NCBI GenBank assembly: GCA_019637105.1
Contig: JAHBWF010000007.1
Location: forward strand, 41,552 to 105,551
DNA from: Labilithrix sp.
Lineage (GTDB): Bacteria > Myxococcota_A > Polyangia > Polyangiales > Polyangiaceae
DNA: 64,000 nucleotides
Direction of reading: 5' to 3'
Shown here: positions 49,980 to 55,379 of the stretch, piece after piece
Position numbering within the stretch: position 1 is the first letter of the stretch
Layout of the letters: each line of letters opens with the position of its first letter
Translations under genes and position numbers: made by a program
Notes under the pieces: generated by a model
The model's input: the letters and a program-made list of their open reading frames with translations, nothing else
Told to the model about the DNA's origin: nothing
Databases searched by the model: none

Positions 49980-50103
49980 GGAGGCTCAGATCAACCGATC
50001 ACGGCTATAGTGCTCGCGGCGGCGCGGTGCGGGCGGGGGTCGACTCGTCGCCGCAGCGCTTTCGCGCATTGACGGCGAGGCATCCGCCTGCGAGCCTTCA
50101 GCG

Positions 50104-50192
50104 AGGGCGGTGGAGTCCGCCCACATCCGTTCGTCGCCCTCGATGGCGGCGAGCCAATGACTCCTACGGCAGTGCCATGTCGGCGCCGTAGG
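50104..50192 (+). ncRNA. Fluoride riboswitch 1 (crcB RNA)
   Basis: The RNA begins GGGCGGTGGAGTCCGCC, matching the GGCGAUGGAGUUCGCC element of the crcB motif with one change (GAUGG to GGUGG). An 8-bp stem TCGTCGCC/GGCGGCGA follows, and then CCAATGACTCCTACGG, matching the conserved 3' element (CUGAUGACUCCUAC). Just past the aptamer, CCTACGGC (50163-50170) can pair with GCCGTAGG (50185-50192), which would take away the aptamer's 3' strand; this is the likely switch. It is followed by a hairpin that hides a ribosome site and then by a CLC-F gene, the known target class of this riboswitch. Confidence 0.82.
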
Positions 50193-50233: not shown

Positions 50234-50470
50234 GTGCTCTCCAACATCCTCGGTCGAGATCGCTCCCGGCCGGCCGCGGCCAGAGGTCGCCCGCGATCGA
50301 TCGCGCGGATCTACCGCCGTCGATCGCGCAAGGCCGGCGGTCCTTTCACGCCCACGTCCTCGCCGCAGCTCGCGCGGCGTCGGATCGAGCAGGCGCTCCG
50401 GCAGGGCGTCCTCCTCGAAGGAGTCGCGATCCGCGTCACCGGCCTCGAGGGTCGCGGAGGCGGCGCGTGA
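50234..50470 (+). CDS. Small basic protein leading the fluoride operon
   Basis: A 78-residue, arginine-rich soluble frame starting with GTG behind GGAGG and ending in a GTGA overlap with the CLC gene. Its opening (MLSNILGRD) and the later ARRRIEQALRQGVLLEGVAIR look like helices. No domain recognised. The coupling and ribosome site suggest it is translated, perhaps mainly to bring ribosomes to the CLC start. Alternatively, the CLC gene is the only real product and this is a leader peptide. Confidence 0.55.
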   Translation: MLSNILGRDRSRPAAARGRPRSIARIYRRRSRKAGGPFTPTSSPQLARRRIEQALRQGVLLEGVAIRVTGLEGRGGGA

Positions 50471-51792
50471 AGGCTCGCGCGCACGCCCTCCTTCAGTGGA
50501 TGGGGCTCGGCGCGGCCGTCGGGGCGGCCTGCGGTCTCGCCTCGGCGCTCTTCCTCGTGCTGCTCGAGCGGGCGACCCAGCTCCGTGAAGCGCACGAGTC
50601 TCTCGTCTACGCGCTGCCGTTCGCCGGCCTCGTCATCGGCGCGGTCTACGAGCGGTGGGGAAGACCCATCAAGGGCGGCAACAACCTCGTCCTCGACACG
50701 ATCCACGAGAACTCGCCGCAGATCCCGCTCCGGATGGCGCCGATGGTCCTCGTCGGCACCGTCCTCACGCACGTCTTCGGCGGAAGCGCCGGGCGCGAAG
50801 GGACCGCCGTCCAGATGGGGGCGGGCCTCGCCGACGAGATCGCGCACCGGCTTCGCGTGGCGTGGGACACGCGCCGGCGTCTGCTCGCGGCGGGGATCGC
50901 CGGCGGCTTCGGTTCGGTCTTCGGGACTCCGATCGCCGGCACGATCTTCGGGATGGAGGTCGTGTCCGTCGGTCGCATCGAGTACGACGCGTTCCTCCCC
51001 GCCCTCGTCGCGGCCATCGTCGGCGATCTCGTCACGCGCGCCCTCGGCGTCGTCCACACGCCGTACCCGCACGTCGCGCACGTGGAGCTGACGCCGCTCG
51101 TGCTCGGCAAGCTCTGCGTCGTCGGCGTCGCGATGGCCCTCGCCACCACCGCGTTCGTGGAGCTCACCCACCGGCTGAAGCGCCTCCTCGAGGCGAAGAT
51201 CCCGCGGCTGCCGGCGCGGATGTTCTTCGGCGGCGTGACCGTCGTCGTCATGTGGAAGTTGGTCGGAACGAGCGACTACCTCGGCCTCGGTGTGCCGACG
51301 ATCGTCCGCTCGTTCACGGATCCCGACCTCCCGTGGTTCGCCTTCGCCGCGAAGCTCGTCTTCACGGCGGTGACGCTGTCCGCGGGGTTCCTCGGCGGCG
51401 AGGTCACGCCGCTGTTCTTCGTCGGCGCGACGCTGGGGAGCGTCCTCGCCCGCGTGCTCGGGTTGCCGATCGAGCTCGGCGCCGGCGCCGGCCTCGCCGC
51501 CGTCTTCGGCGCGGCCGCCAACACGCCCGTCGCGCTGTCCATCATGGCGGTGGAGCTCTTGGGGGTCGCCGCGTTCCCGCACGTGATGATCGTCGCGGTC
51601 ATCGCGTACATCCTGACGGGCCATCGCGGGATCTATCCGGCGCAGCGGCTCTACCTCCGCAAACAGGGCGGGTTCCTCCGGCCGCCGATTCCGCTTCGGG
51701 ACTATCGAGACTCGGTCGTCCCGCCGCCCGATCCAGGACCGCCGTACGACGAGCCCGCCGAGAGCGCGCGGAGCGCGAGACATGGCGAGTGA
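50467..51792 (+). CDS. CLC-F-type fluoride channel/antiporter
   Basis: The 441-residue inner-membrane protein has the CLC fold. In the first filter region the usual GSGIP is replaced by GGNNLVLDTIHE (70-81), typical of the fluoride-exporting CLC-F clade, and the gating glutamate is kept in GREGTAVQMG (E111). The helix N region GGEVTPLFFVGATLGSVLA and the inner tyrosine region are recognisable. A tail of about 40 polar residues follows the last helix. It should expel fluoride by F-/H+ exchange, and the upstream fluoride riboswitch supports this. The start overlaps the small protein's stop; the end overlaps the MFS gene by 11 bases. Confidence 0.92.
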   Translation: MKARAHALLQWMGLGAAVGAACGLASALFLVLLERATQLREAHESLVYALPFAGLVIGAVYERWGRPIKGGNNLVLDTIHENSPQIPLRMAPMVLVGTVLTHVFGGSAGREGTAVQMGAGLADEIAHRLRVAWDTRRRLLAAGIAGGFGSVFGTPIAGTIFGMEVVSVGRIEYDAFLPALVAAIVGDLVTRALGVVHTPYPHVAHVELTPLVLGKLCVVGVAMALATTAFVELTHRLKRLLEAKIPRLPARMFFGGVTVVVMWKLVGTSDYLGLGVPTIVRSFTDPDLPWFAFAAKLVFTAVTLSAGFLGGEVTPLFFVGATLGSVLARVLGLPIELGAGAGLAAVFGAAANTPVALSIMAVELLGVAAFPHVMIVAVIAYILTGHRGIYPAQRLYLRKQGGFLRPPIPLRDYRDSVVPPPDPGPPYDEPAESARSARHGE

Positions 51793-53017
51793 GCCTCCGG
51801 CCGCGGCTCGCTGGCTCAATCGAACGGTGCTCGGGATCGGGCTCGCGAGCCTCTTCTCGGACGTCGGACACGAGATGGCGACGAGCGCGATGCCTGCGCT
51901 CCTCGCGTCGCTCGGCGCGGGCTCCGCGACGCTCGGCGTCATCGAGGGCGTCGCGGACGGTCTCTCCAGCTTCGCGAAGCTCGCGGCGGGGCACTACTCG
52001 GACCGACTGCGTCGCCGTAAGCCGCTGGCGGTGATCGGGTACTTCATGACGGCGTCGGGGATGGCGAGCTTCGCCCTGGCGACGCAGGCCTGGCACGTCC
52101 TCGTCGCCCGCGTCTTCGGCTGGGTGGGGCGCGGCGCGCGAACGCCGGTGCGCAACGTCCTCTTGACGGAGGCGACGACCCCGGAGACGTACGGTCGTGC
52201 GTTCGGGCTCGAACGCACGATGGACAGCGCCGGGGCGATCGTCGGTCCGCTCCTGGCTCTCGTCTTCGCCACCGTCCTGTCGGCGCGGCACGTCTTCGTC
52301 TTGACCTTGATCCCCGGCGTCGTCGCCGCGCTCCTCGTCGCGCTCCTCGTGAAGGAGAAGGCGCACGAGCGCGGTCCGGCGCGACCCTTCGTCGCGAACG
52401 CCCGCGCGTTGCCGCGAAGCTTCCGGAGGTTTCTCGCCGGGGTGGGCGTCGCCGGCCTCGGCGACTACTCGAACACGCTCCTCATCCTCTGGGCGACGCA
52501 GGCCTGGACTCCGCGGCTCGGAGCTCATCGCGCGGCCACCCTCGCGATGGCGTTCTACGTCGGTTACAACGTCGTCTACACGGCGTCGTGCTCGCTCGCC
52601 GGCTGGCTCGCGGACCGATACGCGAAGCATCGCGTCCTCGCCCTCGGATACTCGCTCGCGGTCGTGCCCGCCGTCGCGCTCCTGCTCCCGGGCGACGCCT
52701 ACCTGAAGTTCGCCGTCGTGTTCGGGATCTCGGGTCTGTACATGGGCTTCTGGGAGACGGTCGAGAGCACGATCGCCGCGACCCTGCTGCCGGACGACGC
52801 CCGAGGATCGGGCTTCGGGGTCCTCGCGACGGTCAACGGTCTCGGGGACCTCGTCTCGAGCGTCCTCGTGGGCAGCCTCTGGGCGCTCTCCCCGTACCTC
52901 GCCATGGGGTTCGTCATCGTGACCTCGCTGGCCGGCGCGACGGTCATCGTCTCCGCCCCCTCCGGCGCGGAGGCGCATGCCGCTCGCGGCTCGACCGAAG
53001 AAGAGGAGCGCTCATGA
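51782..53017 (+). CDS. MFS transporter in the fluoride operon
   Basis: The 411-residue protein has 12 predicted helices and the MFS motif DRLRRRKPLAVIGY after helix 2. It resembles sugar/drug-type MFS proteins with SDVGHEMATSAMPALL near the start. Its 11-base overlap with the CLC gene places it in the fluoride operon. The substrate is not known; export of fluoride or of a metabolite that builds up when enolase is blocked are both possible. The stop directly abuts that of the convergent CLC gene (53012-53014). Confidence 0.85.
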   Translation: MASEPPAAARWLNRTVLGIGLASLFSDVGHEMATSAMPALLASLGAGSATLGVIEGVADGLSSFAKLAAGHYSDRLRRRKPLAVIGYFMTASGMASFALATQAWHVLVARVFGWVGRGARTPVRNVLLTEATTPETYGRAFGLERTMDSAGAIVGPLLALVFATVLSARHVFVLTLIPGVVAALLVALLVKEKAHERGPARPFVANARALPRSFRRFLAGVGVAGLGDYSNTLLILWATQAWTPRLGAHRAATLAMAFYVGYNVVYTASCSLAGWLADRYAKHRVLALGYSLAVVPAVALLLPGDAYLKFAVVFGISGLYMGFWETVESTIAATLLPDDARGSGFGVLATVNGLGDLVSSVLVGSLWALSPYLAMGFVIVTSLAGATVIVSAPSGAEAHAARGSTEEEERS

Positions 53018-54319
53018 CGAAGATGACGAGGAGCGCTCATGACGTCCGCTCATGCGAGCGTGCCGGCGGCCCGTCTTGGCCGGGGTGTTGGCGAGGCCCT
53101 CGCCGATCCACGCCGCGACGAGCACGGCGACCCACGCGAGCTTCAAGAGCTCGGTCCCGCCCCACTCGGCGGCGAGCGCGATGGCGGTGAGCGGAGCGTT
53201 GTAGTTCGCGGCGAGGTAGGCGCAGACGCCGATCGCGCACGCCGTCGCGGGCGTCAGGCCCGGGAGGAACGGCTGGCACGACGCGCCGAGGAGACTGCCG
53301 ACCGTCAGCGTGATGACGAGCAGCCCTGCGACCCCGGAGGTGCCGAACGTCGCCCAGACGGAGACGAGCTTCAAGACGAGAAGTCCCGCCGCGGCGGCCC
53401 CGATGAACTTCGCCGTGAACACCGCGTGGGCGAGGGGCAGGCCCGCCTGGAAGGTCCAGGTGTCGCCGAACAGGATCCACGCGATGTAGCCGCTCAGCGA
53501 CGTCACCGCGCCGCCGCCCAGGGCGCGCCAGTACCACGGCAGGTGGCCCGTCCGAACACGAACCCAGACGAGCACGCGCTGAAAGCGCCGCGACAGGAGG
53601 CCCGCGACGACGCCGATCACGAGCGCGCCGAGGAAGGCATCGGGCCGGGTGCTGACCTCGCTCGGAAAGGGCAGCAGCGGATCGTTGTCGAGAATGGCGC
53701 CGTGCACGAGGTGCGCGACGAGCGCCGCCAGCGACGCCGGCACGAGCGCGGTGGAGTCCATGTCCTTCGAGAACGGGGTCTCGAGGGCGAGCAGCGTTCC
53801 CGCGAGCGGCGCGCGGAAGATCGCCGACACGCCCGCCGCGGCCCCGATGAGGAGCCCGTTCGCCGCCGCGATCCCACGAAGCGGCCGGTGACGCTTCAGC
53901 GTGTAGAGCACGTAGAGCGCGACGCGGGCGCCGAGCCACTGGCTCGGACCGCCGAGCCCCGCCGAGGCGCCGAGCCCGACCGTGGCCATGCATGCCCCGA
54001 CCTTCATGGCGTCTTCGCGGGCCGAGAGCGACTCCGGAGGCTCATGGTAGTGAACGACGACCTCGTTCAACATGCCGACCGTGCGGACCCGAAGTCGGTG
54101 AAGGATCGCGCCCGAGATCAAGAGGCCTGCGATCGGCCACACGACGCGTACCTCGACCGGCGTGGAGCCGAGGTGGCCCCAGAGCAGCTCGTTGCAGACG
54201 AGCTCGAGGCCGGCGACGCCGAGCCCGGAGGCGACGCCGACGGGCAGCGCGTAGGCGACCATCCTCCGCAGCTCGACGATCTTGCGCTGCCAGCGCGGCG
54301 GAAGCTTGAGCGGGGGCAT
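53012..54319 (-). CDS. Divergent CLC-family protein lacking the gating glutamate
   Basis: The 435-residue membrane protein has the CLC fold, but the motif aligned to GREGP is GLGGPSQ (121-127), so the glutamate that gates antiporters is missing. The first filter region reads RTVGMLNEVVVHYHEPPES with a Gly-Met pair (82-83), and a Met at this place is known in some CLC-F proteins. Loss of the glutamate would favour an open, channel-like pathway. It lies three bases downstream of the enolase-like fragment and shares its fluoride riboswitch. The terminal RSSSSSS run arises from a short repeat (GAGGAGCGCTCATGACG) shared with the end of the convergent MFS gene. Confidence 0.85.
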   Translation of the reverse strand: MPPLKLPPRWQRKIVELRRMVAYALPVGVASGLGVAGLELVCNELLWGHLGSTPVEVRVVWPIAGLLISGAILHRLRVRTVGMLNEVVVHYHEPPESLSAREDAMKVGACMATVGLGASAGLGGPSQWLGARVALYVLYTLKRHRPLRGIAAANGLLIGAAAGVSAIFRAPLAGTLLALETPFSKDMDSTALVPASLAALVAHLVHGAILDNDPLLPFPSEVSTRPDAFLGALVIGVVAGLLSRRFQRVLVWVRVRTGHLPWYWRALGGGAVTSLSGYIAWILFGDTWTFQAGLPLAHAVFTAKFIGAAAAGLLVLKLVSVWATFGTSGVAGLLVITLTVGSLLGASCQPFLPGLTPATACAIGVCAYLAANYNAPLTAIALAAEWGGTELLKLAWVAVLVAAWIGEGLANTPAKTGRRHARMSGRHERSSSSSS

Positions 54320-54322
54320 CTC

Positions 54323-54628
54323 TCACTCGGCGTCTCGCGAGGGGACGGCTCGTCGAGGTGTCGGATCGGACCGCCAGCGCGGGTGCTCGCCCGAGGATCG
54401 GCTCGAACGCTCGAACGCGACCTCGTGAGCGCCGAGCGCCGGCGCGAACGCTCCTTCGTCGCCGACGCCGCTCGCGAGGCGCGCGGGCACCGAGGCGGCT
54501 CCTGCACGCCCGTCCTCGAGGACGACGTCGACCTCGACCGTCGGCAGCGCGCGGGAGTCGAGGATCTCGCGCGCCCGGATCGCGCGGACCCGCGTGGGAT
54601 GACGCTCGTGCTTCCGCTCCTCCGCCAT
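54323..54628 (-). CDS. Miniature enolase-like protein (internally deleted enolase) under a fluoride riboswitch
   Basis: The 101-residue frame opens like enolase ([20 protein letters not shown]; classic REILDSRGNPTVEVDV at 20-35), keeps a degenerate form of the following PSGASTG loop (VPARLASG), and then jumps directly to [19 protein letters not shown], the VGDEGGFAPNL segment found about 150 residues further on in normal enolases. All later domains are missing, and the tail is low-complexity. Normal enolase has about 430 residues, so this cannot be an active enolase. Yet it has an intact ATG, a GGAGG ribosome site and a fluoride riboswitch, and ends three bases before the CLC gene. Enolase is the classic fluoride-inhibited enzyme and a known riboswitch target. 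It may be a decaying gene or a reused fragment. Confidence 0.75.
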
Positions 54629-54644
54629 ACGGTCCTCCGTACTC

Positions 54645-54710
54645 GGTAGGAGTCATCATCCCTGCCAGGTCACCCGGCGGGGCGGTTCAGGCGGAACTCC
54701 ATCGCCTTCC
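54645..54710 (-). ncRNA. Fluoride riboswitch 2 (crcB RNA)
   Basis: Read on the minus strand, GGCGATGGAGTTCCGCC and TGAACCGCC are near-perfect crcB consensus. A hairpin follows (CCCCGCC against GGCAGGG with one mismatch), and then ATGATGACTCCTACC, the conserved 3' element. The 3' CTCCT of the aptamer can also pair with the AGGAG of the ribosome site (GGAGG) just ahead of the ATG, giving a simple on-off switch for translation: ligand-bound aptamer holds CTCCT and frees the site. It precedes the miniature enolase and a CLC gene. Confidence 0.9.
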
Positions 54711-54713
54711 CGC

Positions 54714-54741
54714 AACATGGTCACCGAGCGCGTCGCGTCAA
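54714..54741 (-). promoter_or_regulatory. Candidate promoter of riboswitch 2
   Basis: On the minus strand TTGACG (54736-54741), a 16-base spacer and CATGTT (54714-54719) would start transcription at or just before the aptamer's first bases. Confidence 0.45.
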
Positions 54742-55379
54742 CGTGACGAGACGCCACGAGCCGATCGCGGCGACGGCGAAGGGCCTCCCAGCTCGGCTCC
54801 ACGAGGAGACCGCCGCTCTCGGCGCGAGCTGCGCAAGAGGACCACGCCCCACTCCTCGTCGTGAGGATGCGAAGGCGACGCTCGAAGCTCAACGTGGAGC
54901 TCACCGCCGTCGAGGACGCCGCGCGGAGACGACGCCCCCCCGAGCGACGAGGCCGCGCGCGTCCCGAGGCTCGGCGGTTGAGTGACGCGAAGTCCGGGCG
55001 GCGCGACGAGCGACGAGGCCGCGCGCGTTCCTGCTCTCGGCGGCCGAGTGACGGAAGACGGGGCGGGACGTGCCCGTCGCGACTCCTCGCGGGACATCGC
55101 GAGGCTCCGTTGCGTGTCCGCGTCCATCGCATGCTACGCTCGCTTCGAGCGGCGGCCTCTCGTCGTCCACGTCGAGGTTGAATGAGACGACGACCGGCAT
55201 CCTCTCTGCGCGCGCGCTCGACCCCCGAGAACGGCGTCGCCTCGAGGGAGAGTCGCGGGCGTCCGAGCTCGTCGCGGCCCCCTTCCCCGACGTCGAAGCC
55301 GTAACGCCGTGCCCGAGACGGCGATCGCAGCCTCATCGAGGCGGGACGCCCCGGACAGGCTGGAGGGAGGCCATCCTCG
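54742..55379. other. Non-coding stretch between riboswitch 2 and the ankyrin gene
   Basis: About 640 bases with only arginine-rich or repeat-derived frames, none with a family match. A degraded direct repeat at 54941-55054 is the main structure. It probably holds the promoter of the ankyrin gene near 55300-55379, although no clear hexamers are visible. Confidence 0.4.
54941..55054. repeat. Two imperfect 47-bp direct repeats with 67-bp period
   Basis: CGAGCGACGAGGCCGCGCGC opens both copies (54941-54987 and 55008-55054), each ending in GAGTGACG; about 6-8 positions differ in the middle. Confidence 0.6.

Follow-up and report, generated by a model that had tools for sequence, protein, structure and literature searches.

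Fluoride inhibits enolase, and the placement of enolase genes under fluoride riboswitches is established, both according to PMC11139923, while for E. cloacae FRM PMC5533749 describes an enolase in a fluoride-riboswitch operon that rises 176-fold. A second type of system that bears on the present locus is that of ppe2 in M. tuberculosis, for which PMC11260477 describes translation of an upstream open reading frame (uORF) in a B12 riboswitch leader as essential for the downstream gene, mainly through termination-reinitiation. Among the open-licence PMC papers listed, no title or opening part of an abstract was found to describe either a truncated enolase or a uORF controlled by a fluoride riboswitch.

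The locus described here lies in a 64-kb stretch of a Labilithrix sp. contig (hereafter the window). It resembles the GI3 operon of E. cloacae FRM (PMC5533749) and a unit in the related genome G027 in that a fluoride-riboswitch unit includes an enolase N-terminus, which in G027 follows the aptamer directly, but it differs from both in that the catalytic body of the enolase is gone and a CLC gene starts three bases further on. The enolase remnant is an open reading frame (ORF) of 101 codons from ATG to TGA (54323-54628, minus strand), identified by ORF calling, Pfam and phmmer. Residues 12-48 (segment 1; 54485-54595, minus) are recognised by Pfam, phmmer and an enolase alignment as the N-terminal part of the enzyme (REILDSR to PTVEV), residues 50-73 (segment 2; 54410-54481, minus) are recognised by phmmer and the alignment as the VGDEGGFAP loop and the residues following it, and the tail (residues 74-101; 54326-54409, minus) holds no recognisable enolase beyond a weak gapped extension, segment 2 aligning with a gap up to residue ~83 in some of the 36 enolases compared. 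Residues 15-54 are assigned to Pfam Enolase_N at 38.9 bits (E 1.1e-9; cut-off 35), but over model positions 2-41 of 131 only, and the NCBIfam model of full-length enolase, TIGR01060, gives 42.8 bits with its best stretch at positions 2-38 of 425, so that the remnant stays far under the equivalog cut-off of 300 bits.

Compared by phmmer with the solved enolase 4rop, remnant residues 12-55 correspond to enolase residues 3-46 and residues 50-73 to residues 197-220, as two separate stretches. The frame joins enolase residues of about 3-40 to those of about 199-220, with the ~150 residues between them absent, which bears out the preliminary description of this DNA, in which the N-terminal segment was said to be fused to the loop with about that number skipped. 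A degenerate pattern of this junction occurs once in the window and in none of 100 shuffles. Everything past enolase residue ~220 is gone as well, a loss that the preliminary description had folded into its remark on the lacking catalytic barrel. The Mg ligands and catalytic lysines, which we take to be D246, E295, D320, K345 and K396 in yeast numbering, fall in the lost part, leaving only the GDEG loop. A catalytically competent small enolase was rejected on these grounds: judged by its sequence, the remnant cannot be a working enolase, because the barrel and the Mg ligands are missing, and the suggestion that it binds Mg-fluoride-phosphate is not supported, because the ligands and lysines are in the lost part.

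When all frames of 53901-54800 were compared with the 36 enolases, the matches left after the two segments and the weak gapped extension were set aside did not exceed those in three shuffles. Outside the two segments 20 rows had E < 0.05, mainly gapped stretches of segment 2, compared with 26, 12 and 11 rows in the three shuffles (best shuffle E 1.8e-4). Survival of C-terminal enolase pieces in another frame was rejected as well, the matches being at shuffle level: 12 rows align the C-terminal end of enolase with a different frame (54300-54470), with a best E of 0.7 and overlapping segment 2, and are taken as chance. The enolase set itself was adjusted in three places, i.e. L016, whose frame breaks after 338 aa, was dropped, the full frame of the G192 enolase took the place of a fragment, and the G124 enolase was left out (cut by a contig end).

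Upstream of the remnant stands a fluoride riboswitch aptamer (RF01734; 54640-54715, minus), which the covariance model scores at 52.9 bits (window-wide E 8.2e-12), well above the gathering score of 34 bits; the riboswitch had been described as kept, and this is borne out. Across 184 genomes of the order the aptamer ranks first among the 30 listed places, and in a phylum sample it ranks second among 26 riboswitch places. The remnant ORF starts 11 bases 3' of it, with a Shine-Dalgarno (SD) sequence GGAGG (54634-54638, minus) 6-10 bases ahead of the ATG and an anti-SD duplex of -9.5 kcal/mol, so that the start and ribosome site are as clean as first reported. With an aptamer that outscores the other 29 listed for the order, the control end shows no sign of decay; from the sequence, the aptamer, the ribosome site and the CLC gene still look maintained.

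The minimum free energy (MFE) fold predicts a hairpin (54617-54652, minus) in which CUCCU of the aptamer 3' strand pairs with AGGAG in codons 3-4, thereby enclosing the ribosome site and the ATG. The 56 bases of 54605-54660 fold at -20.3 kcal/mol (z -3.64, with 0 of 200 shuffles as good), and the hairpin is also present in the MFE fold of the 126-nt leader. By sequence, ACUCC of the aptamer 3' strand could pair either with GGAGU in the aptamer loop or with the start region, and the two pairings are therefore predicted to compete. With GACUCC blocked, the outer helix is lost and the energy goes from -20.3 to -12.6 kcal/mol; an inner hairpin holds two SD bases and two ATG bases in both states, and the computed accessibility of the SD is unchanged. 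The model of the ACUCC switch is thus incomplete, which counts against its simplest version.

At the other end of the frame, the remnant abuts clc1 (53012-54319, minus), a gene of 435 aa for a divergent CLC-type channel or transporter (PF00654, E 4.9e-47) with gene-like codon use. The junction reads GAG TGA GAG ATG, so that the three-base spacing from stop to start stands as originally reported; the preliminary description had not mentioned that the remnant and clc1 share one frame, with only TGA and GAG between them. The anti-SD duplex of the remnant start is equalled by that of clc2, the other CLC gene of the window, whereas that of clc1 is weak (-5.1 kcal/mol) and ends beside the start codon, abutting the ATG. 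A strong SD on the uORF and a weak one on the main gene (-9.5 vs -5.1 kcal/mol) is the pattern looked for in a uORF-dependent gene. The shared frame would also allow readthrough of the TGA, yielding a remnant-CLC fusion protein, but a shared frame has a one in three chance of arising and clc1 has its own ATG, and this is the least probable of the readings considered.

We consider with moderate confidence that the remnant is a translated leader passing the riboswitch signal to clc1. An in-frame internal deletion would have removed ~150 codons of a full-length, fluoride-regulated enolase, a second lesion, possibly in that order, would have removed its 3' half, and the frame would then have run on through 28 non-coding-looking codons to the TGA just before clc1, while the control end (i.e. 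aptamer, ribosome site and start codon) was kept. Fluoride binding would stabilise the aptamer, upon which ACUCC of its 3' strand would pair inside the aptamer and not with the start region, allowing ribosomes to load on the remnant, to terminate at its TGA and to restart three bases on at the ATG of clc1, a gene with hardly any ribosome site itself. The remnant peptide would have no catalytic role, and selection may have acted on the coupling. In the preliminary description, a pseudogene whose translation opens the CLC start and a leader peptide were offered as two readings; in effect they are one, and as such they fit best with the strong SD of the remnant, the three-base spacing and the weak SD of clc1.

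Going by PMC11260477, the likeness to ppe2 of M. tuberculosis lies in a short ORF in a riboswitch leader, a tight junction of stop and start, and a downstream gene without a good SD. The two systems differ in that the dependence of ppe2 has been shown by mutation, that its riboswitch turns translation off in response to B12 and that its stop and start overlap (PMC11260477), whereas for the remnant leader the ligand would be fluoride, stop and start do not overlap, the ORF is the remnant of a gene, and the coupling is proposed from the sequence. If the coupling is real, a dead enzyme gene would have been turned into a regulatory relay, its riboswitch and start site captured by the transporter gene behind it, which would be a simple route for riboswitches to acquire further targets. 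An unusual CLC that lacks the gating glutamate would then also be marked as probably fluoride-regulated.

A less probable account, although one of real weight, is plain decay, i.e. that the enolase died by deletion and its remnant has no role, the riboswitch acting on the transcript or clc1 being translated on its own, with high GC and the recency of the loss accounting for the open frame. The strong SD of the remnant, the weak SD of clc1 and the three-base spacing all speak against it, as does the fact that the best-scoring aptamer among those listed in the order stands ahead of the remnant. In its favour is first of all the distribution of the remnant: no homologue with the same junction, the absence of which the preliminary description had named, together with stops or frameshifts in close strains, as pointing to simple decay, was found in the genome_contigs collection or among the listed matches of the 184 genomes. 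The exact junction DNA pattern gave 0 matches in genome_contigs; this pattern fixes GACTC in the DSR motif and so misses other codon choices, and the collection may leave out the genome itself. The remnant was matched in 150 of the 184 genomes of the order (its own included), none of the listed matches (to about E 4.7e-4) being a complete but short enolase frame, and no other short enolase was found within ~1.5 kb of 48 riboswitch places in the order and the phylum sample. By their coordinates, the short enolase frames encountered stand near contig starts (G103, G165, G081, G073 and G145) or run into contig ends (G124, G130 and G076), while that of G001 (349 aa) belongs to an almost complete enolase interrupted by a single frame change, and weak matches in G035 and G023 are not to segment 1. 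That the remnant is seen in one genome only also counts against the leader reading. In G001, which belongs to the same genus, the broken enolase (L136, C39 4000-9000) is the only one matched, with the frame change after residue ~312, and represents either a draft error or a real break.

The composition of the frame also fits plain decay in part. With in-frame windows of five genes of the window as the yardstick, codons 1-48 are gene-like (462 of 1813 gene windows score no higher), as are codons 49-73 (1231 of 1928), while a score as low as that of tail codons 74-101 is reached by just 2 of 1913 in-frame gene windows. Across the three codon positions the GC of the tail is even (0.71/0.79/0.71 vs 0.83/0.50/0.90 in codons 1-48). 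Since its codon use is not gene-like and its codon-position GC is flat, the tail would most simply be former non-coding sequence that is now read through by the broken gene, and plain decay gains from a tail that is not coding-like. The gene-like codon use on both sides of the junction, together with the deletion being in frame and the position of the locus inside a 105-kb contig, speaks against an assembly error or chimaera, which the draft state of the genome (334 contigs) might otherwise suggest and which we regard as extremely improbable.

Outside the junction, the remnant keeps 24 of 27 columns that are at least 95% invariant among the 36 enolases, the exceptions being V14, A27 and A60. 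This count excludes residues 49-54 as part of the junction, and with them the remnant keeps 25 of 33. Taken at face value, the retention of 24 of 27 invariant columns suggests that the deletion is recent relative to the age of the enolase lineage, with some drift since, which suits plain decay in that there would have been too little time for stops to appear. In a neutral simulation with an assumed indel rate of 7% of substitutions, an open and unshifted frame was left in 15%, 6% and 2% of cases at 0.10, 0.15 and 0.20 substitutions per site, and 57% of random 28-codon tails at the GC of the remnant were open. The simulation leans weakly towards upkeep of the remnant frame and proves nothing, and an open frame at 72% GC is weak evidence.

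Finally, decay behind fluoride riboswitches does occur, as follows from G192, where the first gene behind such a riboswitch is plainly decayed, with its pieces out of frame, which again fits plain decay of the remnant. In G192 (L129 4293-5385), the riboswitch is followed 14 nt on by a 60-residue frame with a GGAGG, another part lying in a different frame; by similarity, the 60-residue frame resembles the start of a cation/proton antiporter and the next frame looks universal-stress-protein-like.

The same retained residues could be read differently, namely as those of a functional microprotein that adopts the N-terminal hairpin fold of enolase and attaches to the full enzyme (e.g. at the dimer interface) in fluoride stress. 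Many invariant residues of segment 1 are indeed kept (A19, R20, L23, D24, S25, R26, P29, T30 and E32), and an effect of fluoride on enolase is given by its inhibition of the enzyme (PMC11139923). However, the remnant is confined to one genome as far as seen, a recent deletion would leave these residues in place in any case, and the arginine-rich tail is without gene-like codon use, all of which makes such a protein quite improbable. A more elaborate form, which is less probable again, has the microprotein made only at high fluoride and docking on full enolase at the enzyme's own N-terminus site, where it would shield or rebuild the enzyme, while its stop would hand the ribosome to a CLC that is uncoupled, channel-like and devoid of the gating glutamate.

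Returning to the translated leader, its parent was likely a fluoride-regulated enolase, although which one the sequence alone does not say. The genome itself holds two full enolases on other contigs, neither with a riboswitch. Recent duplication of either was rejected, since over segment 1 the remnant shares 21 and 22 of 43 identities with them and neither has a riboswitch. A fluoride riboswitch was matched in 24 of the 184 genomes of the order (its own included), and the proposed check of relatives for an intact eno gene under the riboswitch found one in G027, where a full-length enolase (423 aa) stands directly behind a fluoride riboswitch, its ATG 67 nt past the aptamer. Because of this gene, decay of a fluoride-regulated enolase is likely. 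In G124 an enolase stands 1.35 kb from a fluoride riboswitch and in G192 one is directly upstream of it. Among the 60 listed of 88 plasmid records with a match, the highest identities to segment 1 were 63.6 and 62.8%, both of Pseudomonas enolases. Two Pseudomonas plasmid enolases adjoin, by gene annotation, CLC and DUF190 genes and ppa, and one of them also crcB; of the other four of the six plasmid places, three have ordinary surroundings (the first-ranked, H1, included) and one is without annotation. When both segments are scored together, the P. syringae plasmid enolase and an ordinary one of G016 (L006) tie at 185 each.

The gene that would receive the signal is itself unusual. Like the CLC-F fluoride/proton antiporters, clc1 belongs to the CLC family, and its best PDB sequence matches are CLC-F chains (6d0k and 6d0j, E 1.2e-7). 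It differs from them at the GREG/GVEG site, which we take to be that of the gating glutamate, and at GNNL, presumably the GNN motif of CLC-F: where relatives have GREG or GVEG, clc1 has GLGGP (GLGGPSQ), with glycine at the aligned glutamate position, and at the position aligned with GNNL it has MLNEVV, whereas clc2 in the same window has both GREG and GNNL. A glutamate stands at the gating site in 21 of 21 aligned relatives, clc2 included, 1 of the 22 rows being unaligned. From these residues, clc1 is possibly a channel rather than an antiporter. At E 1e-30 no relative of clc1 was found in any other of 377 genomes of the phylum (its own included), nor was any found in genome_contigs or, at E 1e-5, in plasmids; at E 1e-9 it has matches in 95 of 290 genomes of the class (its own included), the best-scoring foreign match being 29% identical.

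On the opposite strand, a second, sub-threshold fluoride riboswitch (50097-50173, plus; 28.3 bits vs the gathering score of 34) lies ahead of clc2 (50467-51792, plus; PF00654), a CLC of the type that commonly follows fluoride riboswitches in the order; at 14 of 28 foreign riboswitch loci the CLC is 53-81% identical to it. A gene for an MFS transporter (51782-53017, plus; PF07690, E 1.3e-36) sits between the two riboswitch units, relatives of which gene stand near a riboswitch in genome G166 and which may be part of the clc2 fluoride unit. The window thus looks like it holds two convergent fluoride units, i.e. riboswitch, clc2 and MFS gene on the plus strand and riboswitch, remnant and clc1 on the minus strand. 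No CrcB was found in the genome, which is 91.5% complete. The 208 bases between the clc2 riboswitch and clc2 (50251-50458) are missing in G006 of the same genus, where the flanks abut, and are single copy in the genome studied here.

The genes directly behind riboswitches were examined at 46 of the 48 places (L103 and L104 were left out, and L098 was taken at a wrong position). Three of these (L089, L090 and L091, in G184, G276 and G279) have a dynamin-family GTPase of 489-494 codons (PF00350, E 1.5e-22 to 3.1e-30) directly behind the fluoride riboswitch, with ORFs starting 17-33 nt past the aptamer; no report of a dynamin in this position was found among the open-licence PMC papers listed. 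G027 holds several fluoride riboswitches near a full enolase (L036, C26 21000-33000), together with antiporter-like (cation/proton) and CrcB-like genes and apparent CBS-domain proteins, and a further one (L064, C26:42503-42576) 11 nt ahead of an ORF of 445 codons that is HEAT-repeat-like by eye.
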